Part shown: one piece after another, positions 4,445 to 21,672 of the stretch
Layout of the letters: every line of letters begins with the position of its first letter
Numbering within the stretch: the stretch's first letter is position 1
Assembly (NCBI GenBank): GCA_016787725.1
Contig: JAEUTZ010000021.1
Coordinates: 434,001 to 498,000 of the forward strand
Reading direction: 5' to 3'
DNA: 64,000 bases
DNA from: Cyclobacteriaceae bacterium
GTDB taxonomy: Bacteria; Bacteroidota; Bacteroidia; Cytophagales; Cyclobacteriaceae
Translations under genes and position numbers: made by a program
Notes under the pieces: model-generated
What the model was told of the DNA's origin: nothing
What the model saw: only the letters and a program-made list of their open reading frames with translations
The model's database searches: none

Positions 4445-4446
4445 GC

Positions 4447-4503
4447 AAGCACGCCAACGTGCTTTGAAATCCTACTTTGCTTTGGCGGGGTAGGATTTTT
4501 CTT
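4447..4503 (+). terminator. Tandem hairpins after the tricorn protease gene
   Basis: Two stem-loops follow the stop codon. The first is a perfect 7-bp stem with a 4-base loop (AAGCACG ccaa CGTGCTT, 4447-4464). The second pairs AAATCCTAC (4467-4475) with GTAGGATTT (4490-4498) and runs into a T-rich tail. The second looks like an intrinsic terminator, and its A/T arms could make it work in both directions between the convergent protease and lipoprotein genes. Confidence 0.7.
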
Positions 4504-4508
4504 TGGAC

Positions 4509-5462
4509 CTATTCATAGTATTCAATCCTGCGCACCGTAACGGATACCGGTTTGCCCTGCCAGTAGGCAACGTCTTTTATCCATTGACCAAAGGCATCGT
4601 ATTCGTAGCGATGCTTTTCGGTGCGGGCGGGCCCCTGGATACCCGCAGTGGTTATTTCCATGGGATTGTGATACGAATCAAATTTACTCCGGATGGTTGA
4701 CTCAATCATCTGACTGCTGTTCAAAACCACAGTTTCAATATTGTTGTTCGCTCCATCGTACTTGAAGTGCAAGGTCTTCTCTCCGGTAGGATCGCGTTGA
4801 AAGGAGGTGATGCGATTACCCTGGTCATCATAGCGATTATATTCCGAATAGGAGGGCACGTCACGCGTATAGCGATGCAGTTCCAGCACGTTTCCGCGGG
4901 CATCCATCACCTTTTCTTCCTTTTTTGAGTATGCCTCTTTCAATAACGTCCACGCAATTATCCTTTTTTGCTGATTAGGTTCGAAGATCACGGTTTCCTT
5001 GCCAATGATTTGAGCACCGGCATCATACAGGCGCATTTCAACAAACTCATCTGCTTCATAAACATACATGCGTTTTTCCGAAACTTTATTGTACTGATAT
5101 TGTATTTGCTCCAGCAACTGGCCTTTTGGATTATATTTGAACACATCCCGACTGATCAGATTTCCCAGATCATTCACCTTTTCCTGCTGTACCAATGCCC
5201 CTTGACGATTGAAGATGGATTTAACAAGAATGGAATGCTTAGCGACTTCCGGATAATGTTGCTGCCCATTGGTCTTTTCAATTGGATCATGCACCGAAAG
5301 CAAAATGCTTTTGATCTTTTTATCGGCAATTAAGTTTTGTTTTTTATCGACCTTGCGTTCATCACAGCCCGGCATGCACAGCAATAAAAGGCAAGGCAGA
5401 AAGAATTTAAAACCCGTCTGCAGGGGAACACTAAGAAAATTGTTTTGATAATTGATTATCAT
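4509..5462 (-). CDS. Putative lipoprotein with YD/RHS-like repeats
   Basis: A putative exported lipoprotein. The frame opens at 5510, but the ATG at 5462 gives a better signal peptide: a charged start, a hydrophobic run FFLPCLLLLCMPG and a Cys that could be lipidated. The mature part has repeated short motifs such as YDDQGN, KYDGANN, EYDAFGQW and EYNPKGQ-like strings, which resemble the YD repeats of RHS proteins and Bacteroidota hypothetical lipoproteins. No catalytic motif is visible. It lies just downstream of the adenylate cyclase gene (stop at 5516) and is probably co-transcribed with it and the Tat-signal protein upstream. The role is unknown; an envelope location is likely. Confidence 0.7.
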   Translation of the reverse strand: MIINYQNNFLSVPLQTGFKFFLPCLLLLCMPGCDERKVDKKQNLIADKKIKSILLSVHDPIEKTNGQQHYPEVAKHSILVKSIFNRQGALVQQEKVNDLGNLISRDVFKYNPKGQLLEQIQYQYNKVSEKRMYVYEADEFVEMRLYDAGAQIIGKETVIFEPNQQKRIIAWTLLKEAYSKKEEKVMDARGNVLELHRYTRDVPSYSEYNRYDDQGNRITSFQRDPTGEKTLHFKYDGANNNIETVVLNSSQMIESTIRSKFDSYHNPMEITTAGIQGPARTEKHRYEYDAFGQWIKDVAYWQGKPVSVTVRRIEYYE

Positions 5463-5515
5463 CGCCACATGGGCCAAGATACTTTTTTTCAGGTCAGAGT
5501 AACAATGCAAACTCG

Positions 5516-7315
5516 TTAAGTCGTTTCGACAAAATACATTTTAAGTGTACCCTTGTTTTTAACGTCAATTTCACCACGATACGTGCAGGCGATGACTTCT
5601 TTTACCAACAGGTAAGTACCTTCAGAGATGTTGATTTTTCCGGGTTCTGAAGCGGACTCCATGCGGGCAGCGATGTTTACGGTATCGCCCCAAATGTCGT
5701 AGGCAAACTTTTGTGTGCCTACCACCCCGGCCACTACTGGCCCCGTATGGATCCCGATACGAACTTCAAAGGTATGTGCCACCTCAGCCGACTGACGGGT
5801 AGCTGCCACAAATTCAGCCATGGCTTTTGCGGCCCCTACCACTCTCAAAGCATGGTCCTCGCAGGAAAAAGGCAGCCCACCGGCACACATATATGCATCG
5901 CCAATGGTCTTGATCTTTTCGAGGCCGTGTTGTTGAATGATTGCATCAAACTTTGAAAAGTAGTAATCCACCGTTTCCACCAATTGTTCAGGTGTCAGGT
6001 TTTCGGCATACTGGGTAAATCCCTTGAAGTCCGCAAAAAGCACAGTCACCGAGGCAAACTTTTTTGCCTGAACTTTGCCATGTTGCTTTAATTCCTGAGC
6101 AGTTTCTTTCGGCAAAATATTCAGTAGTAAAGCTTCCGACCGGTTGCGTTCCTGTTCAATGATCCGGTTGGTGCTTTTAATGTAGCGGTAGCGCCTAAAT
6201 AACCCAATGGCCAGTAATCCGATCAGAATAAGCGCAACGCCAGTACCAATGGCAATAATCTGTTGATTTCGCTTTTGTTGATTGGCAAGGTCTACCTCAA
6301 TTTGTTTTTTGGAAACTTCAAAATCCGTGCGCAAGTTTGCCATTTGTTGCACCGCAGTAATATCTTTTACGCTGTCCTTGTAGGCAATGTGATTCTTATA
6401 ATAGACATAGGATTCTTGCAGCTTGCCCGCCTGCTCATAGATCTCAGCCAACTTTAAGTAGGCATCGCTGATCTGTTCTTTCAAACCATGACGCACAGCC
6501 AGTTCCAGGCTCCGGTTGGCATACTTCAGAGCCGTACCCTCATCTCCCTGGGCAAAGTAGATATCGGCAATGTAATTGAGGTAAACGGCCATAGGATAAT
6601 ATTCCTGCAATGCCTCTAACAGCAAAATGGCTTCGTTCATGTTCTCGGAGGCTTGCAGATTGTCGCCCATTTTTGCGTAGATCATGCCCAGGTTACCCAG
6701 GCTGTATGCCTGGCCCAGCTGTGAATTAACCTTCTGGAAGATGAGTTCTGCTTCGCGTGTGTACAGCAGTGCCGTATCCAGTTGGTTGAGGGTGATGAAG
6801 GCATCCCCTGCATTGAGGAGGGCCGATGCAATATTGACAGAATCCTTTGCTTCTCGCAGAATCTGAATGGCCTTCTGATGATAGCTCATCGCATTCGGAT
6901 AGTTACCCATGATGGCATAAACATCAGCAATAGCCACATACACGGCTCCGAGCCGATGTCTGTACTTTTCATTGTCAACAATCCGGGCTCCTTCGTAGTA
7001 GCTTTCCATCGCCTGACTCAAGTCACTCTTTAAGCGATACGCATTCCCCTGCTCCAGGTATCCCTGGAAAAGATACTCGATGGAATCGACCACCCGGGCA
7101 GCTTCAATGAGCTGTTCGCTGTAATAAAGTGCACGATCGGCATTTGGATGGTGGATGGCCAGCGCTTTCAGTATCAAAAGCTTTTGCTGCGGGGCGTACG
7201 TACCATCTGCATACAGCGTTTCAAGACTATCCAGTGATGATGGCGGCTGGCTCAGGCTAGTCAGCCAACTGAATAACAAGACTGCAATAACAGAAGCGCC
7301 CTTCAGAACATCCAT
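5516..7315 (-). CDS. Membrane class III adenylate cyclase with extracytoplasmic TPR domain
   Basis: Likely makes cAMP from ATP in response to an envelope signal. Order: signal/anchor sequence at the N-terminus, about 300 residues of TPR repeats (NLGMIYAKMGD, AYLKLAEIYEQAGK) predicted periplasmic, a short coiled coil, one membrane helix (GVALILIGLLAIGLF) near residue 350, then a class III cyclase domain in the last 180 residues. Metal aspartates lie in LFADFKGFT and GDAYM. The adenine-selecting Lys (KTIGDAYM) and Asp (YDIWGD) are both present, which favours ATP over GTP. The transition-state Asn and Arg (TVNIAARM) are kept. I chose the ATG at 7315 for its clean signal sequence; a GTG at 7348 lies 6 bases after the upstream stop and is the alternative. 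Confidence 0.9.
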   Translation of the reverse strand: MDVLKGASVIAVLLFSWLTSLSQPPSSLDSLETLYADGTYAPQQKLLILKALAIHHPNADRALYYSEQLIEAARVVDSIEYLFQGYLEQGNAYRLKSDLSQAMESYYEGARIVDNEKYRHRLGAVYVAIADVYAIMGNYPNAMSYHQKAIQILREAKDSVNIASALLNAGDAFITLNQLDTALLYTREAELIFQKVNSQLGQAYSLGNLGMIYAKMGDNLQASENMNEAILLLEALQEYYPMAVYLNYIADIYFAQGDEGTALKYANRSLELAVRHGLKEQISDAYLKLAEIYEQAGKLQESYVYYKNHIAYKDSVKDITAVQQMANLRTDFEVSKKQIEVDLANQQKRNQQIIAIGTGVALILIGLLAIGLFRRYRYIKSTNRIIEQERNRSEALLLNILPKETAQELKQHGKVQAKKFASVTVLFADFKGFTQYAENLTPEQLVETVDYYFSKFDAIIQQHGLEKIKTIGDAYMCAGGLPFSCEDHALRVVGAAKAMAEFVAATRQSAEVAHTFEVRIGIHTGPVVAGVVGTQKFAYDIWGDTVNIAARMESASEPGKINISEGTYLLVKEVIACTYRGEIDVKNKGTLKMYFVETT

Positions 7316-7354
7316 CCACGCACATTGTTTGCTGAACGCAAATGTCACCGTGAA

Positions 7355-7864
7355 TTAATGAACCTTGATGACAGGATCAATATGAAAGGTTCCGTTGCGG
7401 TTTTGACCGTTGTTCTGCACAGTAAAGGAGATTTTGTATTTGAACCGATCCCTTTTTTCGTCTCCGGTTCTGTTCACAACTTTGCCCACTACTTTTTCGG
7501 GAGTTCCGCGGTCTCCGATTAGCACATTCTGACCAAAGATATTCTTGCCGCCTTCGTGGTTGATTGACTTAATATGAACCCGATCGGTTTGGGGCGCATT
7601 AGTCGAAACGCCTTGCCAGGTAATGGTATCTCCCAAATTCGCATCGATTGTAAATTCTTCATTCGGTACGCCTTCGGGCTGACCAAAGTTGCACGAGGTT
7701 GCAGTATTCTGTTTATCCACCAGGCTTGTGTTGACATACAGAGTTACAACAATATTTTGAGCCTGGCCCTGGCGTGTGCGAAAAATAGAAAATGCGGAGA
7801 GTGGTAATGCACCGGCAACTAACATCAATCCGGACTTCTTGATAAACGATCTTCTGTTTTGCAT
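7355..7864 (-). CDS. Tat-exported protein of unknown function
   Basis: A 169-residue protein with a clear twin-arginine signal (NRRSFIKKSG followed by LMLVAGALPLSAFSIF), so it should be exported folded through the Tat pathway. The mature part is beta-rich and polar: a TLYVNTSLVD segment, a Cys at SCNFGQPEG, FTIDANLGDTITWQG and FHIDPVIKVH. The pattern 'GDTITWQG' recalls cupredoxin-like or phage-tail-like beta sandwiches, but I see no His/Cys/Met copper site and do not assign a cofactor. It is the first gene of the minus-strand unit leading to the TPR adenylate cyclase, with only a few bases between them if the cyclase starts at its GTG. It could be a partner or ligand of the cyclase sensor domain; that is inference. 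Confidence 0.75.
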   Translation of the reverse strand: MQNRRSFIKKSGLMLVAGALPLSAFSIFRTRQGQAQNIVVTLYVNTSLVDKQNTATSCNFGQPEGVPNEEFTIDANLGDTITWQGVSTNAPQTDRVHIKSINHEGGKNIFGQNVLIGDRGTPEKVVGKVVNRTGDEKRDRFKYKISFTVQNNGQNRNGTFHIDPVIKVH

Positions 7865-8108
7865 AGCGGAGTGGGTTTGGTGACCCTAAGTTAACAAAAC
7901 CCAGGACAAGATGGGTGAGGGCGTTCAGGAATCATTCCTATCCCTATTCGATGTTAAAACCAGGTGCCCATCTTGAATCGGTCAATAATAAAATGGGTGA
8001 CTTTATTAGGAAGTACGCAGAGCCTCGTGTATAGGTAGTAAAGGTGTTTACTTTCATGCCGTTAGCCAAAAATTTTATTCCTACCTTAGAATCATAAATT
8101 CCAACTTC

Positions 8109-9074
8109 ATGGTTGTTGATTGTGCCGAATATTGCGAGGGCAGGCGCGTGGCCAATGTGGCAATCGAAAACGTACGTGAAGTACTCAAAAAATCGGACCG
8201 TTTTATATGGATTGGCTTGCACGAGCCAGAGCAAGCAATGCTCAAAACCATTCAACTTGAATTTAACCTGCATGAACTTGCGATTGAGGATGCCCTGCGC
8301 GCGCATCAACGCCCCAAAATTGAGGCGTATGGTGATACGCTATTTATTGTGCTTCGAACAGTACATCTCCAAGACAACCGGGTGGAGTTTGGCGAGAGTC
8401 ACATTTTTCTCGGCAGCAATTTTATCGTGACGGTGCGGCATGGGCATTCCAGTGGCTATGCCGAAGTCCGTGCACGGTGCGAGAGCACACCGGAGATGTT
8501 ACGCAAAGGTCCCGCCTTCGCGCTTTATGCGCTCATGGATGCGATTGTCGACCAATTTTTTCCTGTAATTGAATTTCTTCAGGAAGAAGTGACCGATATG
8601 GAGGAGAAAATCTTCCATGAGAAATACAGGCGGGACGTCACGACCAGGATATACCGGCTCAAGCGTCAGTTAATGGACGTGAAACGCGCGGTGTCGCCCC
8701 TGATCGACATGTGTAACCGGTTGTTGCGTTTTGATCTGAAGGTAATTGATGATGCAGCCCGGCCCTACTTCCGCGATGTGTATGATCACACCATCCGGAT
8801 CAATGAAATGCTGGACAGTTCGCGCGAACTGCTTTCCACCGCATTAGAGGCAAATCTTTCCATGATTTCCATTTCGCAAAGTGAAGTTTCCAAACGGTTT
8901 GCCGGATGGGCTGCGCTGATTGGGATACCGACCATGATTGCGGGGATCTATGGAATGAATTTTCAGTTTATGCCGGAACTTACCTGGCGCTGGGGGTATC
9001 CTCTGGTGCTGGTGCTAACCACGGTGATCTGCATCGTACTTTATATCCGGTTTAAGAAGTCGGGTTGGTTGTAA
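8109..9074 (+). CDS. corA: CorA-family magnesium/divalent cation channel
   Basis: A 321-residue CorA magnesium transporter. The N-terminal cytoplasmic domain (about 1-250) has family strings FIWIGLHEPE, DALRAHQRPK and FPVIEFLQEEV plus the long coiled stalk helix. Two membrane helices close the protein, separated by the loop MPEL, and the signature GMN sits at residues 282-284 (YGMNF). It ends with the basic tail RFKKSGWL. Length is standard. The start is the ATG at 8109. The 245-base region before it contains no gene; TACCTTAG (8082-8089) is a 7-of-8 match to a -7 box. The next gene, a small membrane protein, starts 24 bases after the stop and may be co-transcribed. Confidence 0.95.
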   Translation: MVVDCAEYCEGRRVANVAIENVREVLKKSDRFIWIGLHEPEQAMLKTIQLEFNLHELAIEDALRAHQRPKIEAYGDTLFIVLRTVHLQDNRVEFGESHIFLGSNFIVTVRHGHSSGYAEVRARCESTPEMLRKGPAFALYALMDAIVDQFFPVIEFLQEEVTDMEEKIFHEKYRRDVTTRIYRLKRQLMDVKRAVSPLIDMCNRLLRFDLKVIDDAARPYFRDVYDHTIRINEMLDSSRELLSTALEANLSMISISQSEVSKRFAGWAALIGIPTMIAGIYGMNFQFMPELTWRWGYPLVLVLTTVICIVLYIRFKKSGWL

Positions 9075-9098
9075 TGGGAACTCCAAGATAGAACCTGC

Positions 9099-9647
9099 AT
9101 GGTGTCGCCAAATCAGTCTCTCGAAGAGATGAAAGTTGCCTACGAAAAATTTCTGGCGCTGAAGGGGGAGGTATTCGAAGTGAAGTCGGTAGACATGAAT
9201 GCCGGAGAGGCGGCACTCGTGAAAAAGGCCGAGCGTTTCAATAGGCGAATTTCATTCCCGTTCTTCATAGCGATGGGCGTCCTTTCGATGGGTGTCGGTG
9301 TCTGGGCATTGTGGAGCGGCTTTATCATTCAGGGGCTGGGATTGTTAATAGGTGCCGTTGCGGCAGGGGCTTTCGGGTTGTCGTACAGCGGGTATAAACA
9401 AGAAAGCCCGAAGCATAAAGTAGTGATTACCGGGATCATTACCGGTCGGAAAACGTATAACCGGCAGTTTGGTAAATCCTATCTGATTACACTCAGCCGA
9501 AAGAAAGATTTATTGGTTGCGAAGGAGGATTACGATAAAATCAGACTCGGAGATCTTGTGCAATATGAAACGTTGAGTGAAACACAGGATATTAAGTCAG
9601 GCATTACCCGGCTTGGTCATATCAACGATGTGATGAATAGCAGTTAG
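9099..9647 (+). CDS. Small two-helix membrane protein of unknown function
   Basis: A 182-residue protein I do not recognise. The first 50 residues are charged and helical. Two hydrophobic helices follow (FPFFIAMGVLSMGVGVWALW and IIQGLGLLIGAVAAGAFGL, roughly residues 52-95). The C-terminal half (about 100-175) is a soluble beta-rich domain: HKVVITGIITGRKTYN, YLITLSRKKDLLVAK and LGDLVQYETL. That last pattern is compatible with a small OB-like or DUF fold exposed to the cytoplasm. It follows corA by 24 bases on the same strand, which may mean shared transcription, but there is no evidence for a role in ion transport. Confidence 0.7.
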   Translation: MVSPNQSLEEMKVAYEKFLALKGEVFEVKSVDMNAGEAALVKKAERFNRRISFPFFIAMGVLSMGVGVWALWSGFIIQGLGLLIGAVAAGAFGLSYSGYKQESPKHKVVITGIITGRKTYNRQFGKSYLITLSRKKDLLVAKEDYDKIRLGDLVQYETLSETQDIKSGITRLGHINDVMNSS

Positions 9648-9722
9648 GGTCTCTGCTTTTACACGCTGATCAGATCAACTTATACAACTCAACCGGATAC
9701 GTCACATTTTTCAGTTCTTGTT

Positions 9723-10694
9723 TCACTGACAACGAACCACAATCTTACCAACAAACTTTCCTTCCAGAAAATACCGGAACGCATCAGCTGTATTCTTCAA
9801 CGGGAAGATTCGGTCAATGACCGGAAAAATTTTGTTTGTTTCAAACAGGTGGGCAAGTAATTCCAAATCTGCACGATTGGGACGGTACCCCATGATGCCC
9901 AGTTTCTTTGATCTGAACCCGGACAGAAAGGGCTCGATCAGCATCATACTTAATAACAAACCACCCATGGAGCCACCAATCATAGCAAATACCCCATCCG
10001 GTTTAAGTGCCCGTTTGTAATCAGCCACCTTGCGGTGTGCAATGACGTCCAGAATTTTATCGTAGGTTTTGCCCGTTCGGGTATAATCGGTGCTTGTAAA
10101 GTCAATTACCTCATCGGCTCCCAGTTTAAGCAGGTATTCTAATTTTTCTTTGCGATCAACGCACGTCACCTGGGCCTGTATAGATTTCAAATATTGCAGT
10201 GCCAAGGTGCCGACACCTCCCCCGGCTCCATTGAGCAGGATGTGTTGTCCGGCTTTCACTTCTCCCTGATACCGCAAGCCTTGTATGGCCAGTAACCCGG
10301 CTTGCGGCAAGGCCGCGGCTTGTTCAAATGTCATGCGGGCTGGCTTTCGGGCTAATAACTTTTCAGGTACGGCCACGTATTCGGCCAACCCTCCAAATGT
10401 TTCGGCTATGTCACCAAATACTTGATCGCCAACTTGAAAATCTCGGGTTTGTGGTCCGGTTTCAACAACCACTCCCGCAATGTCCGCGCCCAGAATATTT
10501 TTGCGGGGTTTGAATAATCCGCTAAGCAGTCGAATAATCCATGAATTGCCATGCAGCATGTCGATGTCCCAGGAATTAAGCGAGGTTGCCTCCACCTTTA
10601 CAAGTACTTGCCCTTTTTTTGGAACAGGTCTAGGTACCTCCTTCCATTGAAGCTGATCGGGCGTGCCGTATTGGTAATAACAAATTGCATGCAT
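9723..10694 (-). CDS. Zinc-independent MDR oxidoreductase (quinone oxidoreductase-like)
   Basis: A 323-residue medium-chain dehydrogenase/reductase of the quinone oxidoreductase/NAD(P)-dependent alcohol dehydrogenase branch. It has the GroES-like N-terminal domain (VLVKVEATSLNSWDIDMLHG, ILGADIAGVVVETG, VGDQVFG) and the Rossmann domain with the nucleotide-binding run GAGGGVGTLALQYLK near residue 155 and a KYLLKLGADEVIDF strand pattern. The structural and catalytic zinc cysteines of alcohol dehydrogenases are absent, fitting a zinc-free NADPH reductase of quinones or enals. It lies downstream of a pirin gene on the same strand with a 66-base gap. The physiological substrate cannot be read from sequence. 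Confidence 0.9.
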   Translation of the reverse strand: MHAICYYQYGTPDQLQWKEVPRPVPKKGQVLVKVEATSLNSWDIDMLHGNSWIIRLLSGLFKPRKNILGADIAGVVVETGPQTRDFQVGDQVFGDIAETFGGLAEYVAVPEKLLARKPARMTFEQAAALPQAGLLAIQGLRYQGEVKAGQHILLNGAGGGVGTLALQYLKSIQAQVTCVDRKEKLEYLLKLGADEVIDFTSTDYTRTGKTYDKILDVIAHRKVADYKRALKPDGVFAMIGGSMGGLLLSMMLIEPFLSGFRSKKLGIMGYRPNRADLELLAHLFETNKIFPVIDRIFPLKNTADAFRYFLEGKFVGKIVVRCQ

Positions 10695-10760
10695 TCCTCA
10701 AGTTGATAAAACATGCCAAAGAATGCAAGAAGGTGCTGAATGCCTTCAAAACAAAACCGC

Positions 10761-11774
10761 CTAATTCTTCACCACCTCCGTACCATCCGGGTATTTGGCA
10801 AATCGGCTTTTTGTACGCGGGTGCACATGTTCATGACTCGGCCAGGGCCAGCCGCCAAATTCGGTTTGTTGGTATTCGGCATAGGCTTGTTGTATTTCCG
10901 CTTGCGAGTTCATCACAAAGGGCCCGTATTGCACGACCGGCTCGCCAATGGGTTTACCTTGAAGCAACAGGAAGAGCCCCGGTTCATCGCCATTAATTAG
11001 CGTTATTGCTACATCGGGTTTCAGCTCAAATGCCTGGTGCGTATTGAATGTCTTGTCTGCCAGTTGAATGGAAGTGCCACCATAAAAATAAAGAGACCTG
11101 TTTACCGAAACAGATGCAGTGGGCAGTGTCCAGGATGCACCCGGTTCCATCTTGATGGTCCAGATCGCCACTTCATTTGTTGGATTGGCAGCCCACGAAT
11201 CCGGGGCAGGTTGCGGAGCGTGAACGTTGTCAATAACACCTGCCACTATGTTAACGATGGATTTTTTGTTATTAACATCTGTATGCGTAAACGTGGGAAT
11301 GCTCTCGCTCCACAACATGGCGAAGTGTGGACTGGCCATTTTTTTATGGCGAGGCAAATTGAGCCAGATCTGAAAGAGTTCTAGCGGATTGTCTTGTTCC
11401 TGATTAATCAATGGAAACATTTCGCAATGTTGTACACCTTTTCCGGCCGTCATCCACTGCACATCGCCAAAGCCAAAGCGACCTGCAGCTCCGAGTGAAT
11501 CGGAATGATCAACCAGACCCTTCGTAACAATTGTCACAGTTTCAAACCCGCGATGGGGGTGGGCTGGAAAGCCCGGCACGTGTTCGCCATGGTACATGCG
11601 CCACGGTTGGTTGGGAGCAAAGTCCTGACCAATTGAACGACCTGCCAGGGAGGCAGCCGGTCCCATTTTCTCGTTTCCTTTAGGATAATAATCTTCGTGG
11701 TGGACACAGAATAAAAAAGGGTCTTGAGTTTGCCACGGAAAACCGAGTGGTTTAATTGACTTTATCGCGCTCAT
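10761..11774 (-). CDS. Pirin family protein
   Basis: A 337-residue bicupin of the pirin family. Pirins bind one metal ion in the N-terminal cupin; bacterial members include quercetin 2,3-dioxygenases and redox-linked regulators. The four metal ligands expected from the family are all present: His72 and His74 in AHPHRGFE, His116 and Glu118 in VQHCEMF. The C-terminal cupin region is also present, and the protein is longer than most pirins (about 230-300) by a C-terminal tail with [15 protein letters not shown]. It is followed on the same strand by an MDR oxidoreductase gene, suggesting a small redox or detoxification unit. Substrate unknown. Confidence 0.92.
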
Positions 11775-11873
11775 AGTAAACGGTTATCTTCTCTAACCAA
11801 GAAGTTAATTGAAAAGTTTTTGGACATCGAAAACAAGACGAGCCTCCTTCTTTGTGGATACAGCTTTATGCTC

Positions 11874-12635
11874 TCAATGTTTTTCTATTTTTCTAAAAAT
11901 GTCTGAAGGCACCAGTACCAACAGCTTGGATCCTGACTCAAATTGGATCTTCGCCAGAATATCTTTTGTTTTATGATTGATGGTGAGAATTTCTCCCATT
12001 CCATAGTTCATGTGAAAAAAGGAATCACCCACTTTCAGTTTGTCAATCTGAGGCTGGGTAAGAGGTTCGCCTACATAATCCGGCAACGGTGAAATGAAAG
12101 GCAAATGACTTTTCTTTTCCGGTTCCTCAAGAGGAATTGGTACGAATTCCGGAGCAGGTACTTCCGATTGAGCAGACGAAATATTCAATCGATTCAGCAA
12201 CTCATACGCGACTGGTTTAGTGGCCAGTGTTTTTTTCAAGGCCTCCCCTAATACTTCCACCTCAGTTTGCACGGTATCAATGCGGAGGGATTCATCGTAT
12301 TCAACGATCTCAAATTCTGGAATATTGGCGGTGGCGTTTGTTTTAATGTCTTTAATTAAAACTACTGGCAGATTCAGTGCATGCCGGATGGCAAACCCAT
12401 ACAGGGCATGCGGGTCGTTCGAACTTAAATCGCAGAGAACGATATCACTCTCAATCATGGTTTGCACAATTCCCAAGGGGGACTCGTTCATCGTAGGTTC
12501 GCCCACCTGAATGGGCGTGACTCCTGCCATTCGGCAGGCAGGTACAAGTATGTATTGATAAACCCGACCGAAGTGACCTTTTGCATATCCTTCAGGCTCC
12601 GAGCCTGGCAGGATAATAAAGCATTTCTTTTCCAT
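11874..12635 (-). CDS. Deoxyribosyltransferase-like domain fused to UvrD-tail/Tudor-like domain
   Basis: A 253-residue two-domain protein. Residues 1-140 follow the nucleoside 2-deoxyribosyltransferase/TIR-like Rossmann pattern: CFIILPGS, SDIVLCDLSSNDP (residues 63-75) and RHALNLPVVLIKD. In active relatives this block reads NPNV(L/F)YELG and its Glu is catalytic; here residues 74-82 read DPHALYGFA, so a Gly (residue 80) stands where the Glu is expected. Residues 141-197 are a Pro/Glu-rich linker. Residues 198-250 (KVGDSFFHMNYGMGEILTI...ILAKIQFE) match the C-terminal tail of UvrD/PcrA helicases, a Tudor-like fold that contacts RNA polymerase in that family. Monocistronic. It may be a nucleotide sensor rather than an enzyme. 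Function unknown. Confidence 0.75.
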   Translation of the reverse strand: MEKKCFIILPGSEPEGYAKGHFGRVYQYILVPACRMAGVTPIQVGEPTMNESPLGIVQTMIESDIVLCDLSSNDPHALYGFAIRHALNLPVVLIKDIKTNATANIPEFEIVEYDESLRIDTVQTEVEVLGEALKKTLATKPVAYELLNRLNISSAQSEVPAPEFVPIPLEEPEKKSHLPFISPLPDYVGEPLTQPQIDKLKVGDSFFHMNYGMGEILTINHKTKDILAKIQFESGSKLLVLVPSDIFRKIEKH

Positions 12636-12657
12636 ACGTTGCCAATTAAATGCCCTG

Positions 12658-12665
12658 CAAAAGTA
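12658..12665 (-). promoter_or_regulatory. Candidate -7 promoter box for the deoxyribosyltransferase-like gene
   Basis: On the minus strand this reads TACTTTTG, an exact match to the Bacteroidota -7 consensus TAnnTTTG. It lies 22 bases from the ATG at 12635, which would give a leader of roughly 15-18 bases. No TTG/TTTG -33 box is evident. Confidence 0.45.
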
Positions 12666-12716
12666 GTTTAAAAATCAGTCTAAGAGTATACTTAATGTGG
12701 TGTTAGTACGGCCATG

Positions 12717-12796
12717 CAATTAAGAATTGTTCGGATGGAGTACATCCTAGATCTAGTCTGCTTCTCCGGTTTTTTAGTAAATTCAATTCTTAATTG
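12717..12796. promoter_or_regulatory. Paired CAATT-N3-AATTG palindromes in the divergent intergenic region
   Basis: CAATTAAGAATTG at 12717-12729 and CAATTCTTAATTG at 12784-12796 are exact 13-base reverse complements. Each is itself a CAATT-N3-AATTG palindrome. Their centres are 67 bases apart, and the second ends 18 bases before the ATG at 12815. They could be two operators for one dimeric regulator or the arms of a long hairpin. The rest of the 180-base region contains the candidate -7 box at 12658 and nothing else that I can identify. Confidence 0.5.
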
Positions 12797-12814
12797 ACAC
12801 TTAACCCCAATCCC

Positions 12815-13243
12815 ATGACTACCTCAAAACCTGCCACCTGGTTCTGGATTGTTAGCGGTATTGCCCTACTCTGGAATCTCCTGGGTGTTATGGCCTACAT
12901 GGCCCAGGTAACCATGAGTCCTGAAGCCTTGCATGCATTGCCTGAAAATGAACGAACACTGATTGAGACTACACCTTCATGGGCTACCGGGGCTTTTGCG
13001 GTGGCCGTTTGGGGTGGCACATTGGGTGCCTTGTTATTGTTATTGCGTAGAACGGTTGCTACCCCTATCCTCATCGTTTCTTTAGTAGGCGTTGTCGTTC
13101 AGATGATTCACGCCTTTTTTATTTCCAATTCGATTGAAGTTTACGGTCCAGGAGGAATGGCTATGCCGGCTATGGTCATGATCTTTGCCATCTTTCTCAT
13201 ATGGTTTTCCCGCAGGGCAACAGCCAGTGGTTGGATGCGATAA
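12815..13243 (+). CDS. Four-helix integral membrane protein
   Basis: A 142-residue membrane protein with four predicted helices: WFWIVSGIALLWNLLGVMAY, WATGAFAVAVWGGTLGALLLLL, ILIVSLVGVVVQMIHAFF and MAMPAMVMIFAIFLIWFS. The loop between helices one and two carries SPEALHALPENERTLIE. Similar small Bacteroidota proteins are sometimes labelled 'sugar transporter', a label I would not rely on. The start is the ATG at 12815; a TTG seven codons upstream is less likely. The gene ends 10 bases before the oxidoreductase start and is probably co-transcribed with it. Two palindromic sites lie directly upstream. Function unknown. Confidence 0.75.
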   Translation: MTTSKPATWFWIVSGIALLWNLLGVMAYMAQVTMSPEALHALPENERTLIETTPSWATGAFAVAVWGGTLGALLLLLRRTVATPILIVSLVGVVVQMIHAFFISNSIEVYGPGGMAMPAMVMIFAIFLIWFSRRATASGWMR

Positions 13244-13253
13244 ACACATTGCC

Positions 13254-14330
13254 ATGAATAGAATCATTATCGTCTGCCTGTTGTTTATCTCCTTCAAAGG
13301 AACCACGCAACCGAAACCCTTTCGCATTGGCATAGCAGGCCTCACGCATTCGCATGTTCACTGGATTCTGGGTCGGGCTAAAACCGGAGATCTTGAAATT
13401 GTTGGGATTGCCGAGCCAAACCGGGCATTGGCTGAACGCTTCTTAAAGCAATACAACCTTCCCATGTCGTTGGTATATCCCTCGTTGGTGGAAATGTTGA
13501 ACAAGACCTCACCGGAAGCGGTAACGGCATTTAGCAGTATTGAAGAGCACCTCGAAGTGGTGCGCGTCTGTGCCCCCCGCAAAATCCATGTCATGGTGGA
13601 GAAACCATTGGCTGTAAGCTTGGAGCAGGCAAAAGAAATGGAGGCTCTTGCCACCCGCCATGGTATTATTCTGCTTACGAATTATGAAACAACCTGGTAT
13701 GGCAGCAATGAAGCTGCGGTTGAGAAACTAAAAGGCATGGGCCACATTCGCAAAATAGTTGTGCACGATGGTCATCAGGGCCCGAAAGAGATTGGTGTGA
13801 ACGCGGAATTTTTGGAATGGCTCACAGACCCAGTAAAGAATGGGGGCGGAGCCATTACGGATTTTGGATGTTACGGAGCCAACCTGATCACCTGGTTGTT
13901 GAAGGGGGAGCGACCCATTTCTGTGTTTGCCCTTACGCAACAATTGAAGCCGGAAGTATACCCGAATGTGGATGATGAAGCGACTATTGTAGTTGAATAC
14001 GCTCACGCGCAAGGGATCATTCAGGCTTCATGGAATTGGCCGTACAGCAGGAAGGACATGGAAGTGTATGCAACAACCGGGTCCGTGTTTGCTGATCGTG
14101 ATGGTATTAAAGTCAAGTCCGATCCGAATGCAGAGGCACAGTTTATCCGAACGGCTGCACCCGCTGCACCCCGTCACGATCCATTTGCTTTGTTCGCTGC
14201 GGTTGTGAGAAAAGAAATGGAACTATCCAAGGTGGATCTGTCTTCCCTGGATAACAATATGATCGTGATGGAGATACTCGAAGCCGCCAAACAATCAGCC
14301 CGTGAAGGCAGGCGGGTAAAGTTGCAGTGA
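13254..14330 (+). CDS. Exported Gfo/Idh/MocA family oxidoreductase
   Basis: A 358-residue NAD(P)-dependent oxidoreductase of the Gfo/Idh/MocA family, which act on sugars and inositols. The N-terminal signal peptide (MNRIIIVCLLFISFKGTTQ) suggests export, as for several Bacteroidota members. The Rossmann domain starts at FRIGIAGLTHSHVHWILG, where the usual GxGxxG is degenerate; the EKPLA motif with its catalytic Lys is at about residue 118, and the C-terminal beta domain has NGGGAITDFGCYGANLI. The ATG at 13254 was chosen because longer frames overlap the upstream gene and would hide the signal peptide. The substrate is unknown. Confidence 0.87.
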   Translation: MNRIIIVCLLFISFKGTTQPKPFRIGIAGLTHSHVHWILGRAKTGDLEIVGIAEPNRALAERFLKQYNLPMSLVYPSLVEMLNKTSPEAVTAFSSIEEHLEVVRVCAPRKIHVMVEKPLAVSLEQAKEMEALATRHGIILLTNYETTWYGSNEAAVEKLKGMGHIRKIVVHDGHQGPKEIGVNAEFLEWLTDPVKNGGGAITDFGCYGANLITWLLKGERPISVFALTQQLKPEVYPNVDDEATIVVEYAHAQGIIQASWNWPYSRKDMEVYATTGSVFADRDGIKVKSDPNAEAQFIRTAAPAAPRHDPFALFAAVVRKEMELSKVDLSSLDNNMIVMEILEAAKQSAREGRRVKLQ

Positions 14331-14412
14331 TGACGAAATGCCTATCATCTCTGTCCTACCCAGTATTTACAAACCCGTCAATTTAGAACCCATCAAAATT
14401 AGGCTACCAATT

Positions 14413-14441
14413 GTTTGGTATAGCTTTCGGGAGTATTTTTG
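14413..14441 (+). promoter_or_regulatory. Candidate promoter of the sdhCAB operon
   Basis: TTTG at 14413-14416 is separated by 17 bases from TATTTTTG at 14434-14441, an exact match to the Bacteroidota -7 box TAnnTTTG. The sdhC ATG follows 24 bases later. This is the only convincing promoter before the three-gene unit. Confidence 0.5.
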
Positions 14442-14465
14442 AATCACTGCTTATTCCTTAATGAT

Positions 14466-15140
14466 ATGAAATGGTTTCTTGATCTCTTCTCCAGTTCGCT
14501 GGGAAGAAAAGTATTGATGGCCTTAACCGGTTTGTTTCTCATTCTGTTCCTGGTTGTGCACCTGGCCGGAAACTTGCAACTCCTTAAAGATGATGGGGGT
14601 GAGGCTTTCAATATCTACGCTAAGTTCATGACTACCAACCCCCTCATTAAAACAATCTCTTACGTCAACTACACCTTTATCTTGTTGCACGTTTTAATAG
14701 CCATCTACTTATCGCGTAAGAACCGTGCGGCCCGCGGCAGCCGGGGGTATGCCATTTCTGGCAAATCTTCAACCTGGTCTTCCCGCAACATGGGTATCCT
14801 TGGGTTTTTGCTGCTCGTCTTTATTGTTGTTCACATGAAAGACTTTTGGGCGCAGATGCATTGGGGCGGTATTCCTACCGCTATGTATGATGGGGTGGAG
14901 GTGAAAGATCTTTACTCCATTGTCTCGCTTGCTTTTTCACAAGCCTGGTATGTTGGGTTGTATGTGTTTTGTATGATTGGCTTGGCGTTCCACCTTTGGC
15001 ATGGATTTGCCAGCGCCTTTCAAACGCTCGGCCTAAACCATCTCAAGTACAATCCTGTTATAAACTTTGTCGGAAAAGCATTTGCCATCATAGTACCTGC
15101 AGCATTTGCCTTGATTCCGATCTGGATGTTTCTTGTTTAA
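14466..15140 (+). CDS. sdhC: Succinate dehydrogenase cytochrome b558 subunit
   Basis: The 224-residue membrane anchor of complex II (type B, cytochrome b558), which passes electrons between the iron-sulfur subunit and menaquinone. It has five hydrophobic helices. Candidate haem-ligand histidines occur in VVHLAGNL, FILLHVLIAIYL, FIVVHMKDFW and GLAFHLWHGF, the expected spread for a di-haem b558 protein. The ATG at 14466 was preferred to an upstream in-frame TTG because it begins the conserved amphipathic segment MKWFLDLFSSSLGRK. It is the first gene of sdhCAB, with a promoter candidate just upstream and sdhA 39 bases downstream. Confidence 0.95.
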   Translation: MKWFLDLFSSSLGRKVLMALTGLFLILFLVVHLAGNLQLLKDDGGEAFNIYAKFMTTNPLIKTISYVNYTFILLHVLIAIYLSRKNRAARGSRGYAISGKSSTWSSRNMGILGFLLLVFIVVHMKDFWAQMHWGGIPTAMYDGVEVKDLYSIVSLAFSQAWYVGLYVFCMIGLAFHLWHGFASAFQTLGLNHLKYNPVINFVGKAFAIIVPAAFALIPIWMFLV

Positions 15141-15179
15141 TCTTTTCTTGTTAAGAATTAAAATCTTTAATCATAGGTC

Positions 15180-17105
15180 ATGAAGCTCGATTCGAAAATT
15201 CCGGAAGGCCCAATAGGAGAGAAATGGACGAAGCATAAGTTCAATCTGAAGCTGGTTAACCCGTCTAACAAGCGAAAGTACGACATTATTATTGTGGGCA
15301 CGGGGCTGGCAGGGGCTTCTGCCGCAGCCTCACTGGGTGAGCTTGGGTATAACGTAAAGGCATTTACCTATCACGATAGTCCGCGCAGGGCGCACAGCAT
15401 TGCAGCGCAAGGCGGGATTAACGCGGCCAAGAACTATCAGAACGATGGTGATAGCGTTTACCGGTTATTTTATGATACGATCAAGGGTGGTGACTACCGT
15501 GCCCGCGAAGGCAACGTGCATCGCTTGGCAGAAGTGAGCGTAAACATCATTGATCAATGTGTAGCCCAGGGAGTTCCATTTGCCCGGGAGTATGGCGGGT
15601 TGTTGGCGAACCGATCCTTTGGGGGTGCCCAGGTGTCACGCACCTTTTATGCGCGCGGTCAAACGGGCCAGCAATTATTGTTAGGTGCGTACAGTGCCCT
15701 TAACCGGCAAATCGCAAATGGGAAGGTGAAGATGTACACCCGTACGGAAATGCTCGATGTGATCGTGGTGGATGGCAAGGCCCGGGGTATCATTACCCGC
15801 GATTTAGTAACTGGCAAGATTGAAGCCCACAGTGCCCATGCCGTGTTGCTCTGCACCGGTGGTTATTCCAATGTTTTTTACCTGTCTACGAGCGCAAAAG
15901 CCTGCAATGCTTCGGCTGTCTGGAGAGCGCATAAAAAGGGAGCTTTCTTTGGCAACCCTTGCTTCACGCAGATTCACCCAACCTGCATTCCGGTCTCGGG
16001 CGATCATCAATCAAAACTAACGTTGATGTCGGAGTCGTTGCGGAACGATGGACGTGTGTGGGTGCCTAAGAAAGCCATGAAAGGGTTGAAGGCAAGTGAT
16101 GCAGCCAATATTAAAGAGGAAGATCGCGATTACTTTCTGGAGCGGAGATATCCTTCATTCGGAAATCTGGTGCCCCGCGATGTGGCTTCACGCAATGCCA
16201 AGAATGTTTGTGACGAAGGCCGCGGAGTTGGCCCTACCGGGCTGGCCGTTTTCATGGATTTCTCGGATGCGATTAAACGCGATGGTCGTTCCGTCATTGA
16301 ATCCAAGTATGGCAACCTGTTCGACATGTACAAACAGATTACCGGTGACAACCCTTACGAAGTACCGATGATGATCTTCCCGGCTGTGCACTATACCATG
16401 GGCGGACTGTGGGTTGACTATAATTTAATGACCACGGTTCCCGGATTGTATTGTTTGGGCGAGGCCAATTTCTCCGACCATGGGGCCAACCGACTTGGCG
16501 CCAGTGCGCTCATGCAGGGCTTAGCCGATGGGTACTTTGTAATTCCTTATACCATTGGCGATTACCTTGCCTCCCTGGGCTGGAAAGCAAAGATCGGCAC
16601 CGATCACCCGGCTTTTAAAGAGGGAATGGAAAAAGTGAAAGCCAGTGTTGACCGCCTCCTGAACATTAAGGGTAAGAAAACTGTGGATGAATTCCACAGG
16701 CAGCTGGGTTTAATCATGTGGGAGTATTGCGGTATGTCGCGCAATGAAGCCGGCCTGAAAAAAGCGAAGAAATTAATACAGGATCTGCGGGCCGAATTCT
16801 GGACCAATGTAAGTGTGTTGGGTTCGGACACAGAGTTGAACCAGGAATTAGAGAAAGCGGGTCGCGTGGCTGACTTTCTGGAATTGGGCGAACTGATGAT
16901 TGACGATGCCTTGAACCGCAGCGAATCGTGTGGGGGTCACTTCCGTGAAGAATCAGCCACGGAAGATGGTGAGGCGAAACGAAACGATGACCTCTTTGCC
17001 TATGTGGCGGCCTGGGAATTTACGGGCGACAACCAGCCGGAGAACCTGCATAAGGAAGATCTCCGTTTCGAAAATGTGAAGTTAACTCAACGAAGCTATA
17101 AGTAA
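15180..17105 (+). CDS. sdhA: Succinate dehydrogenase/fumarate reductase flavoprotein subunit
   Basis: The 641-residue catalytic subunit of complex II, oxidising succinate to fumarate in the TCA cycle on the cytoplasmic face of the membrane. The FAD fold is seen in [21 protein letters not shown] near residues 35-58. The His expected to carry covalent FAD is His72 in [11 protein letters not shown]. Substrate-binding segments HPTCIP and [10 protein letters not shown] are present, and the FAD-binding [11 protein letters not shown] is near residue 440. Length matches the Bacteroidota/epsilon-type enzyme. The stop is followed by two bases and then the sdhB ATG. Confidence 0.97.
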
Positions 17106-17107
17106 TT

Positions 17108-17878
17108 ATGAAGATCACTCTGAAAATCTGGAGGCAGAAAAGCAAGACAACGAAAGGTGAATTCAAGATCTATCAGTTAGGTCATGTTTCTCCCGATATG
17201 TCATTCCTGGAAATGCTCGATGTGTTGAATCAGGACCTCATCAAGAAGGGTGAGGAGCCAGTTACTTTTGACCATGATTGCCGTGAAGGTATTTGTGGCG
17301 TGTGCAGCCTGTATATCAATGGCCGGCCACACGGGCCGTTGCAAACTACCACCTGTCAATTGCACATGCGTACCTTCAAAGATGGTGAAACCATCACGAT
17401 TGAGCCTTGGCGGGCGCAGGCATTTCCAATCATTAAAGATTTGATGGTGGACAGGTCCGCTTTTGACCGCATTCAGCAAGCCGGTGGGTTCATCAGTATC
17501 AACACGGGTGGTGCTCCGGATGCAAATGAAATACCCGTACCAAAAAAGATTGCCGATGAAGCCATGGACGCAGCACAATGTATCGGTTGTGGGGCTTGTG
17601 TTGCAGCGTGCAAGAATGCTTCCGCCATGTTATTTGTCAGTGCAAAAGTTTCGCAGTTGGCATTATTGCCCCAAGGCCAACCAGAGCGAAAAGAACGCGT
17701 TGAAAAAATGGTAGCCCAAATGGATGCTGAAGGATTTGGTGCCTGTACCAACACCTATGCGTGCGAAGCTGAGTGTCCGAAGGGTATTAAGATTACTCAC
17801 ATTGCCCGCATGAACCGCGAATATTTTACCGCCATGTTAAGCTCGTATCAGATCGAAGCGAAGGCAGGCGGTGATTAA
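17108..17878 (+). CDS. sdhB: Succinate dehydrogenase iron-sulfur subunit
   Basis: The 256-residue iron-sulfur subunit linking the flavin of SdhA to the haems of SdhC. The 2Fe-2S ligands are Cys58, Cys63, Cys66 (CREGICGVC) and Cys83. The 4Fe-4S ligands start at Cys158 ([11 protein letters not shown]), and the later cysteines in [14 protein letters not shown] bind the remaining cluster. It is the last gene of sdhCAB and converges with a lipoprotein gene whose stop lies 12 bases away; I see no terminator hairpin between them. Confidence 0.97.
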
Positions 17879-17890
17879 GAGGAGTTCGGC

Positions 17891-18421
17891 TTAGTATTTA
17901 AAGACTTCCTGACGGTAGTTGCTTTTGCAGGTTCCGACCCCCACACGGCCGGATTGCAAGGCCTTCGTGACGGACCGCCCGATATTTCCACCGGCTAAAA
18001 TAATGTCTTGTTCAGGACCAACAGCGGAAAGGTGTACTTTAATACATGCTTCCAAATCAATCATATCCCAATAGGTAAGAGGCGTTTCATCGGCTAATTG
18101 GGATACAATTGTTTCACTGGTGCCCGTTCGTGCATCAACCGGGTTGAGAAGTGCGGCAACATCTGCCCCTGCGGTGGCAATATCTCCCAAGTGCAGGTGT
18201 ACGGGTAACTTAGCTTCGCCACGGGTACCGGTTAATGTAACTTGCACGGTTGAATGGCCATCCTTTCTTTCTTTGATCACCACCGTTCCTGAGGTGGCAT
18301 AAGCCGACCCTGGCTGTAAATAATACGTTACCTCATTCCCCGTAAATTCGCTGGTTGTCTCCGTTTCCTGGCAGGCCACTACCACCAGACCCATCATCAG
18401 TAATCCCAAAAATTGTTTCAT
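17891..18421 (-). CDS. Putative lipoprotein, CHRD-like
   Basis: A 176-residue putative lipoprotein. From the ATG at 18421 the protein has a short charged start, a hydrophobic run (FLGLLMMGLVVVA) and a lipobox ending VVAC, so the Cys should be lipidated and the protein anchored in the envelope. The mature part contains a GTVVIKERKDGHSTVQVTL strand pair and a LPVHLHLGDI segment, reminiscent of CHRD domains, which have repeated beta strands and a conserved His. A second Cys pair (LEACIKV, VGTCKS) may form a disulfide. A longer frame to 18454 would bury the signal peptide. Function unknown. Confidence 0.7.
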   Translation of the reverse strand: MKQFLGLLMMGLVVVACQETETTSEFTGNEVTYYLQPGSAYATSGTVVIKERKDGHSTVQVTLTGTRGEAKLPVHLHLGDIATAGADVAALLNPVDARTGTSETIVSQLADETPLTYWDMIDLEACIKVHLSAVGPEQDIILAGGNIGRSVTKALQSGRVGVGTCKSNYRQEVFKY

Positions 18422-18561
18422 GCCCACGTGGTTATACGGATTAAATTTATTCAATTTCTACAAAAGTACCCCTGTCAAATACCATAAAATCCACGAGTTC
18501 CTCGATTTGGCACAGATATGGTTTATATTCGTGGTAACGAAACCATGTTTATTTTAATTCT

Positions 18562-19938
18562 GTGAAACGGCTTTTATTTCTCTTGGTTATCCTGGGTGGC
18601 TGTAGTCCCTCGGTTACCAATTCCTCTCTGAAAACGGACTTGCAAAATCCCCGGCCCGAATGGCTCACCGCCAAACCGGTATCGCCTTCTTATTATATCG
18701 GCATTGGGCATGGTGTTAAGGATGGATCCAATAACTATATCCAGATGGCAAAGAAGAGTGCGTTGGAGGACCTTGTTTCGGAAATAAAAGTAAACATCTC
18801 GTCCACCTCAGTCTTAAGCCAGATTGATATTAATAAGGAGTTTCAGGAAAAATATGAGCAAATCATCCAGACCACAGTGGCGGATGAACTGGAAGAATTT
18901 GAGCAAGTAGACGCCTGGGAAGATGACCGCAACTATTGGGTGTACTACCGGCTCTCGAAACAACGGTATAAGGAGATCAAGGATCAACAAAAGCGGGATG
19001 CCATAGCCTTGGGTCTGGATTTTTTTACCAAGGCCAAAGAATCTGAGCGGAAAGGGGAGACTGTACTATCCCTCGGTTTTTACTACCAGGGTTTCCGGGC
19101 AATTGAAAAGTACCTGGATGAACCCATTCGCCTCGAGTTTGAAGGCAAGGAAATCCTGTTAACCAATGAGATCATCGCCAACATGCAGTTGCTCCTTGAT
19201 AAGATGGAGTTAACCGTTGACCCGAATCAGATTATGCTCAACCGCAGGGTGGCCCAAAATAATCTTATGGTACTGGCAAAAGTGGTAGATAAGACATCGC
19301 GTAGGGCTATTACGGATTTACCCCTTGTTGCTGCTTTTGAGAAAGGAGCGGGTGATGTGTTTCCCACCTACAAAACGGATGGATCGGGCCAGGCGCGCAT
19401 CCTCCTAACCAAGATCAGCTCGCGAGATGTGGAACAAACAGTAGGAGTGAAAGTAGACATCCTGAGTTTTTCTGGTACCAATGGTTCGGATATCTACACA
19501 TTGGTAGCCCAAAAAATGGTGGTTCCTAAAGCCACTGTTCTTATGAAAGTGCAACGTCCGTTGGTTTATGTAAGCGCTGTTGAAAAAAGTCTGGGCGTAG
19601 ACAAATCCAATCAACAAATCACGAATCGCATAAAAAATTACCTGGTGAACTCGGGATTTGAATTTACAGAAGATATCAATAAAGCAGAACTTGCATTAGA
19701 CATTAATGCGAATTCGGAGAAGGGTGCCGTTTCGGGGAGCATTTACATTACGTATGTTACTGCGTTGATTCGGGTATCAACGGCCAGGGACAATAAGGAA
19801 ATCTATGCCACCACACTTGACCGGATTAAAGGGTTCAGTCTCGACTTTGAACGCTCCAGCCAGGAAGCTTATAACAAATCGCTGGAGGTGCTGGAGAAAG
19901 AGAAATTGCCGGAACTGTTAAACGCGATTTTGCAATAA
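18562..19938 (+). CDS. LPP20-family lipoprotein
   Basis: A 458-residue lipoprotein with a GTG start. The signal peptide MKRLLFLLVILGGC gives a lipobox ending GGC. Residues about 30-150 resemble the LPP20 family: PEWLTAKP, YYIGIGHG, a long helix MAKKSALEDLVSEIKVNIS, then YWVYYRLSKQRY. This is the conserved core used for outer-membrane assembly or flagellar accessory proteins elsewhere. The rest is Bacteroidota-specific, with helical and beta regions ending in a domain with LALDINANSEKGAVSGSIYI. A smaller lipoprotein with the same helix pattern follows 112 bases downstream. Its biological role is not established. Confidence 0.8.
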   Translation: MKRLLFLLVILGGCSPSVTNSSLKTDLQNPRPEWLTAKPVSPSYYIGIGHGVKDGSNNYIQMAKKSALEDLVSEIKVNISSTSVLSQIDINKEFQEKYEQIIQTTVADELEEFEQVDAWEDDRNYWVYYRLSKQRYKEIKDQQKRDAIALGLDFFTKAKESERKGETVLSLGFYYQGFRAIEKYLDEPIRLEFEGKEILLTNEIIANMQLLLDKMELTVDPNQIMLNRRVAQNNLMVLAKVVDKTSRRAITDLPLVAAFEKGAGDVFPTYKTDGSGQARILLTKISSRDVEQTVGVKVDILSFSGTNGSDIYTLVAQKMVVPKATVLMKVQRPLVYVSAVEKSLGVDKSNQQITNRIKNYLVNSGFEFTEDINKAELALDINANSEKGAVSGSIYITYVTALIRVSTARDNKEIYATTLDRIKGFSLDFERSSQEAYNKSLEVLEKEKLPELLNAILQ

Positions 19939-20050
19939 AATATGCCTTTTTTGAATATAAATAAGGCTTTTTGTTTAGTAAATTGTCTTCGCATTAAAGT
20001 GGCCTGTTAATTGCATTATTGTAAATTGCATAACCAAATTTGAAATTGAT

Positions 20051-20614
20051 ATGAAAAAGTTAAACTATGTCTCTCTCCTTGTACTGGTTGCTGCAGCCCT
20101 CATTGTTGGCTGTAAGGGTAAGGAAAAAATTCCTGCTGGTGAAAAGGAAGTAGTCGTGCCTTGCTCCGGTCCGGATTACTTCACCACCGCCAAATTCTTC
20201 CGCTCCAATTCCATTGGCGAAAGCCAGGATCAGGTGACTTCCAAGAAGAAAGCACTAACCAATGCCCGCAACGAATTAGCGCAAGCAATCAATACTACGG
20301 TGAAAACGGTAACGGATAATTACGTTAACTCCCGTGAAATGAATAACCGGGAAGAAGTAGAGGAGCGTTTTGAGAGTCTGAACCGCGAAGTGGTGGACCA
20401 AAGTTTATCAGGAATCCGCACCTTATGCGAAAAACTGGTAAAAACTGATCAAGGTACCTACAAAACCTACGTTGCCATTGAGCTTTCTGCTGATGAATTA
20501 GTATCTAAGTACAACGAGCGCCTTTCCAAGGATGAGCGTCTCAAGATCGATTACGACTATGAGAAGTTCAAGGAAACCTTCGACAAGGAAATGGAAAAAA
20601 TGGGTAACAATTAA
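20051..20614 (+). CDS. Small LPP20-like lipoprotein
   Basis: A 187-residue lipoprotein with signal peptide MKKLNYVSLLVLVAAALIVGC (lipobox IVGC). The mature part has GPDYFTTAKFFRSNSIG, then a long helix TNARNELAQAINTTVKTVTDNYV and YKTYVAIELSADELVSKYNERLS, the same order of motifs as the LPP20-like core of the preceding gene, so the two look like distant paralogues. The C-terminal 50 residues are charged and helical. It is followed by a strong intrinsic terminator at 20637. The 112 bases before it hold a weak 5-bp hairpin with a T run (19944-19973) that may end transcription of the upstream gene. Confidence 0.75.
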   Translation: MKKLNYVSLLVLVAAALIVGCKGKEKIPAGEKEVVVPCSGPDYFTTAKFFRSNSIGESQDQVTSKKKALTNARNELAQAINTTVKTVTDNYVNSREMNNREEVEERFESLNREVVDQSLSGIRTLCEKLVKTDQGTYKTYVAIELSADELVSKYNERLSKDERLKIDYDYEKFKETFDKEMEKMGNN

Positions 20615-20636
20615 CCCTTACAACCATCCATATAAA

Positions 20637-20666: not shown

Positions 20667-20674
20667 GCCCTTAT

Positions 20675-20682: not shown

Positions 20683-20686
20683 ATGA

Positions 20687-21645: not shown

Positions 21646-21672
21646 TTGGAAATAACGGACCCGAGGTTAGAA

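Follow-up and report, generated by a model that had tools for sequence, protein, structure and literature searches.

What does a nucleotide-binding domain do once it has lost its catalytic Glu and become joined to a tail like that of the DNA helicases PcrA and UvrD? The question is raised by one gene, P0001, in a 64,000-nucleotide stretch of Cyclobacteriaceae bacterium DNA (GCA_016787725.1, contig JAEUTZ010000021.1, positions 434,001 to 498,000; hereafter, the window). A preliminary description, made from the letters of the DNA, had placed an open reading frame here without naming its strand; the frame is real and lies on the minus strand (Table 1), and all motifs quoted at that time, as well as a Pro/Glu-rich linker, are found in its product. 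We tentatively read P0001, with somewhat less than even confidence, as a pseudoenzyme that descends from TIR-like proteins, probably effectors, and serves as a non-catalytic sensor or regulator tethered to RNA polymerase (RNAP).

Loss of the Catalytic Glu from a TIR-Like Domain

The N-terminal domain was modelled with ten-residue pLDDT means of 66–97 (most 83 or more), and its best structure matches were DNPH1, MilB, nucleoside 2′-deoxyribosyltransferases (NDTs), and TIR-STING, placing it in the TIR/deoxyribosyltransferase Rossmannoid class. The phrog_3634 profile matched P0001 residues 2–118 (E 8.1e-13) as well as 17 of 17 A3 members, and a PADLOC TIR effector model matched L030, the closest Glu-positive relative (E 3.2e-7), while PADLOC gave no match for P0001 itself. 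PF05014 was not among the P0001 matches listed at E ≤ 10 and was matched weakly by 5 of the 17 A3 members (best E 0.0042); DUF4062 was absent both from the P0001 matches listed to E 10 and from those of the A4 and A3 families listed at 0.05, with HMMER filters dropping most matches above 0.1. A PDB sequence search with the P0001 N-terminal domain gave no match at E 10, and the A3 profile gave two weak ones, to a designed protein (E 0.7) and to Blasticidin M (E 1.1), whose EIG aligned to the ELG of the family. The deoxyribosyltransferase-like character originally proposed for this domain thus holds for its fold, but the domain looks nearer to the TIR-like immune-effector branch than to the classical deoxyribosyltransferases; DNPH1, MilB, and the NDTs, which are N-glycosidases (PF05014), differ from P0001 in that it has Gly for Glu, and share 9–16% identity with it in the listed alignments. 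Because the class is described as including inactive sensors too, absence of the Glu bars the name of enzyme, not membership in the class.

Relatives were sought in samples of the genus (63 genomes), family (246), order (391), class (395), and phylum (395), and in the families to which two hits belong (8 and 92 genomes); since the larger-group searches were samples, in which at most 6–10 first-look candidates per genome were scored, counts of relatives are lower bounds. A full member was present in 16 of the 63 genus genomes, including the genome of P0001, in which neither a second family member nor a Glu-positive relative was found. The genus gave a seventeenth hit, G164, a distant protein that reads NPNVLYELG, and the class sample gave two more matches at E 1e-25, both from outside the genus and neither covering the tail.

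The tree of N-terminal domains took in 52 of the 111 distinct frames that were matched, those at ≥95 bits with one near-copy dropped, and the Glu column of its alignment held Glu in 34 rows and another residue in 18. Gly80 of P0001, in the helix after strand 3, stands in this column, confirming the substitution proposed earlier. Misalignment of the Glu was considered and ruled out: the stretch of P0001 between residues 63 and 106 is free of Glu, which leaves none nearby to shift into the column. The 16 genus rows form one clade (starred in the tree) with Gly (8), Ala (3), Val (2), Ile (2), or Ser (1) at position 80, and the sister of this clade is the Glu-positive L030. The 21 rows that bear the tail comprise these 16, three Glu-positive rows, and two with Lys or Gln at the Glu position (L032 from G249, NSEVLYKLG; L033 from G297, NSEVLYQLG); the domain combination is, therefore, not singular to P0001. 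L032 and L033 group with the Glu-positive L031 and are altered at Asp45 as well (L032 also at Arg43), yet both retain the helical-stalk-like region that, as read from the sequences, takes the place of the linker in Glu-positive relatives. Two changes on starred branches are needed to account for Glu loss, and the AU test did not reject a single Glu-less clade (p 0.273); the tree makes it likely, though not proven, that the Glu was lost independently more than once.

The clade was compared with 23 Glu-positive rows, the other 11 of the 34 being distant or on long branches and hence excluded; among the 23, 39 columns are at least 90% conserved. None of the 16 clade rows has the catalytic Glu expected of an active enzyme, nor Gly82 (Ala in 15) or Phe87, while Val77 is kept in two and Pro75 in four; P0001 additionally lacks Arg43, Asp45, and the acid at position 55. 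All 16 clade rows retain twelve of the conserved residues (Cys5, Pro10, Tyr17, Gly20, His21, Pro32, Ala33, Asp69, Ser71, Arg84, Tyr113, and Val122).

Nine gene pairs were compared for the ratio of nonsynonymous to synonymous substitution (dN/dS). The least diverged pair (L004/L005, dS 0.37) had a dN/dS of 0.09 overall and 0.06 in the N-terminal domain; three further pairs had whole-gene values of 0.09–0.18 at dS 1.7–3.2, near saturation, and the remaining five, including both pairs with P0001, were saturated over the whole gene (pN/pS 0.20–0.36). The linker evolves faster in all four pairs that gave a value (0.25–0.53). Purifying selection in the least diverged pair thus indicates that the gene is maintained without its catalytic residue, and the Glu-less state, found in every one of the 16 members and with a close pair under such selection, is more than chance.

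A Tail of the PcrA/UvrD Type

The C-terminal domain is a Tudor barrel of the PcrA/UvrD type, as the family profile and the fold agree, in line with the preliminary description; in Pfam scores, the CarD/TRCF RID comes close to it. For P0001 alone, RID (PF02559) scored 19.5 bits against a cut-off of 23, and the PcrA/UvrD tudor 15.6 against 23.9; among the 21 tail members at E 0.05, RID matched 11 and the PcrA tudor eight, with best E values of 4.8e-5 and 1.2e-7, respectively. L031 exceeds the PcrA tudor cut-off (31.9 bits), and L001 barely exceeds that of RID (23.8). With L117, which is truncated by a contig end, left out, a profile of 20 tails searched against PDB gave PcrA, UvrD, or so-named DNA helicase chains as its first eight matches (E 2.8e-7 to 1.1e-4), whereas CarD-named chains matched only at E 1.6 and above. 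The tail profile also matched PcrA (36.9 bits) and Mfd (18.7 bits) of the same genome, and Foldseek placed 5dma at rank 16 (E 2.9e-3, TM 0.76 on target, rmsd 2.2).

In the PcrA tail, each of H681A, W684A, K712A, and L714A is reported, in the text available, to strongly lower RNAP pulldown (PMC5397179). Alignment to 5dma places these residues at His208, Tyr211, Lys237, and Leu239 of P0001, and in the 20 tails the corresponding columns hold His in 20, Tyr (8), His (8), or Phe (4) for Trp, Lys in 20, and Leu (18) or Ile (2). The PcrA tail is reported to bind RpoB at a TGE hairpin within the SI1 insert, the motif being present in UvrB too (PMC8318588); RpoB of the same genome carries VDEDTGEVV, which fits the TGE motif and sits between the two pieces of a split beta2-domain match. 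If docking is true, binding to RpoB through VDEDTGEVV is predicted to depend on His208 and Lys237. P0001 thus has in common with the PcrA/UvrD C-terminal Tudor (5dma, 7egs, 6yi2; PF21196) the profile, the barrel with its Phe, the His, Lys, and Leu contacts, and a disordered linker ahead; it differs in that the tail is not attached to a helicase, Trp is replaced by Tyr, His, or Phe, an extra C-terminal segment with RKI is present in most family rows, and RNAP binding is predicted from sequence. A tail common to the prophage relatives was also considered and is not claimed, because A6, compared by hhalign with the C-ends of five of them, reached a probability of only 1.7.

A Proposed Tethered Pseudoenzyme and Its Alternatives

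The Glu-positive family is probably one of immune effectors, judging from its class and neighbours. The ancestral protein would have been such a TIR-like effector, in which the Glu was lost and the inter-domain region turned into a Pro/Glu-rich linker, with the docking surface largely kept. The tail may dock P0001 on the beta subunit of RNAP, or on another partner with a TGE motif such as UvrB, and would there compete with PcrA or mark its site, with the N-terminal domain presented by the flexible linker. More tentatively, this domain may still bind, but no longer cleave, a nucleotide or NAD-derived ligand, since Asp69, Ser71, Arg84, His21, and Tyr113 are kept throughout the clade and the YDESLRID loop is near-invariant. 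From the putative docking and ligand binding together it would follow that P0001 acts as a ligand-gated adaptor at RNAP, with PcrA recruitment, transcription, repair, or the activity of other TIR-like proteins as candidate outputs. The earlier interpretation is, as a whole, partly supported, and the sensor that it proposed, which would couple nucleotide or NAD-derived signals to transcription or repair, is plausible; findings that would have spoken against the interpretation were looked for, and the N-terminus did not fall elsewhere, no Glu aligned at position 80, and the tail was not mismatched.

The tethered sensor or regulator fits the evidence best. Second to it, and in itself doubtful, is a decoy or scaffold acting through protein contacts, in which a dead, ligand-free N-terminal domain caps or poisons active TIR-like effectors, such as those of prophages entering the cell, or the tail merely competes with PcrA for RNAP or UvrB. 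As we read the sequences, a protein without the Glu and with another region in place of the stalk-like one has the makings of a dominant-negative form, and a target for such a form exists in nature, since prophages and the surroundings of defence genes contain Glu-positive relatives; the drift of pocket residues in P0001 would fit as well, and the lack of any Glu-positive relative found in its own genome would fit a target from outside. P0001 residues 81–150 (12186–12395, minus strand) also match the immunity protein Imm68, at 17.7 bits, below the cut-off of 29.6, as do 3 of the 20 other tail-bearing rows, likewise below the cut-off (best E 4.7e-4); this weak match leans in the same direction, though it may have arisen by chance. 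Against a decoy, Asp69, Ser71, Arg84, and His21 are invariant across the clade, and in none of the surroundings compared is the gene paired with one for an active relative.

Two further alternatives come after these. It is improbable that the tail serves DNA, RNA, or another partner and resembles PcrA in fold only: Tudor-like barrels have many partners, the C-ends of the five prophage relatives cannot be shown to be this domain, and the Pfam calls are divided, but three of the four RNAP-contact residues are conserved, the tail directly matches the PcrA tail of its own genome, and the docking motif is present in the host RpoB insert. That P0001 is still an enzyme, in which an acid of the EYDESLRIDxVQ loop (Asp114, Glu115, or Asp120) or Asp69 replaces the Glu, perhaps for a new substrate, we regard as quite improbable. 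The loop, the most conserved stretch of the Glu-less clade, has 11 of its 12 columns at 15/16 or more, compared with 31 of 140 columns overall, and none of 100000 column shuffles was as dense (the shuffle ignores correlation along the chain); its topology, after strand 5, suggests the side on which Rossmannoid active sites lie, and acids at positions 115 and 114 are present in all 16 clade rows versus 2 and 7 of the 23 Glu-positive rows, respectively. L030, however, has both this motif and its Glu, so the motif probably predates the loss, and position 80 is occupied by various small or apolar residues. A functionless, decaying remnant is very improbable, given open frames in all 16 members (one cut by a contig end), the dN/dS of 0.09 in a pair far from saturation, and invariant tail contacts, even though several catalytic-site residues are gone and occurrence in the genus is patchy.

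A bolder scenario extends the tethered reading to the whole branch: TIR-like effectors would guard host RNAP through the PcrA-type Tudor and fire when a phage displaces it, and in this genus the effector would have been disarmed and would now act, where it docks, as a regulator or inhibitor gated by a nucleotide. We consider this unlikely; the three Glu-positive tail-bearing relatives are those that bear on RNAP guarding as a phage-sensing strategy. If true, the tethered reading would physically and directly connect NAD- or nucleotide-type immune domains with the machinery of transcription, and nature would have run the experiment of removing the catalytic residue from a protein that keeps its docking site. 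No description of a fusion of a TIR-like domain with a PcrA tail was found in searches of the open-licence PMC literature. In the text available, the DUF4062/Swarozyc TIR-like NADases (PMC13174449) likewise combine the TIR-like class with an accessory C-terminal domain and lie near defence genes, as Glu-positive relatives of P0001 do; their defence requires Glu E97, of which P0001 has no equivalent, and their mechanism, as far as that text goes, involves helical stalks and mentions no Tudor barrel.

Gene Features and Genomic Surroundings

Table 1. Features of P0001 and its gene (window positions; residues numbered in P0001).
Feature	Residues	Position	Strand	Remarks
P0001 gene	1–253	11874..12635	minus	253 aa, ATG start, solo gene
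N-terminal domain	1–140	12216..12635	minus	Rossmannoid TIR/NDT-class fold, five-stranded; model, structure matches, phrog_3634
SDIVLCDLSS	63–72			
DPHALYGFA	74–82	12390..12416	minus	counterpart of NPNVLYELG; alignment
Gly80 codon	80	12396–12398	minus	Glu in relatives
RHALNLPVVLIKD	84–96			
EYDESLRIDTVQ	112–123	12267..12302	minus	most conserved stretch of the Glu-less clade
Pro/Glu-rich linker	about 141–180	12096..12215	minus	model confidence mostly low
LPFISPLPDYVG	178–189	12069..12104	minus	pre-tail motif kept in most clade members
C-terminal domain	200–250	11886..12038	minus	PcrA/UvrD-type Tudor barrel; profile, fold, contact residues
VGDSFFHMNYGMGE	202–215			
Contact-residue equivalents	His208, Tyr211, Lys237, Leu239			in the C-terminal domain

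Upstream of the gene, TACTTTTG (12658..12665, minus strand; 22 bases 5′ of the ATG) resembles the Bacteroidota −7 promoter element; no clean −33 element was seen upstream of the ATG. The downstream neighbour, a pirin gene, is separated by a gap of 99 bases. No other open reading frame of window positions 4001–22000 was matched (E 1e-5) in the 14 loci compared, among which L093 and L095 have neighbours in common, as do L098 and L099. Ten window neighbours were scanned, and seven had a Pfam match at E 0.001 (TPR-cyclase, PixA, CorA, zinc-type dehydrogenase, pirin, GFO/IDH/MocA, and succinate dehydrogenase flavoprotein type). One of the ten had a PADLOC defence match, the TPR-cyclase (window 5516–7348, minus strand; 4.5 kb away), whose class III nucleotide cyclase domain (Pfam Guanylate_cyc) matched Pycsar cyclase models (E 1.7e-17), although class III cyclases generally might match these models. 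A 149-aa open reading frame divergent from P0001 (window 12794–13243, plus strand) appears membrane-like by eye and had no Pfam match at E 0.001.

Around the Glu-positive relatives, ten neighbouring proteins were chosen by eye at seven loci, without a background rate, and a PADLOC match was found at five of these hand-picked loci. An AbiL pair (L133) and PD-T7-4 (L132) adjoin such relatives, GajA (L129) and PDC-S15 (L100) lie about 1.7 kb away, and at L096:3705-7211 a PDC-S71 candidate defence gene, a gene for a 245-aa protein without a PADLOC match, and L030 follow one another on one strand; the picked neighbours at L128 and L134 gave no PADLOC hit. Phage or prophage settings are indicated for L092, which is flanked by annotated CI repressor and integrase genes, and, by our reading of the sequence, for L127 in the same way; L090 lies a few genes ahead of an annotated terminase, and L138 and L139 appear directly ahead of terminase-like genes. 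Viral contigs gave no relatives with P0001 as the query and 19 loci with A2. The phrog_3634 phage proteins, of function not known, have a homologous N-terminal domain, but the phage and viral-contig members inspected retain the Glu and differ in their C-ends; phrog_3634 appears to be a TIR-like family carried by phages and so far unstudied. A distant relative of the N-terminal domain also occurs in 14 Staphylococcus and 15 Streptococcus phage records, hypothetical where annotated, and the Staphylococcus phage relatives (H2–H14) share 27% identity with the domain in those listed.
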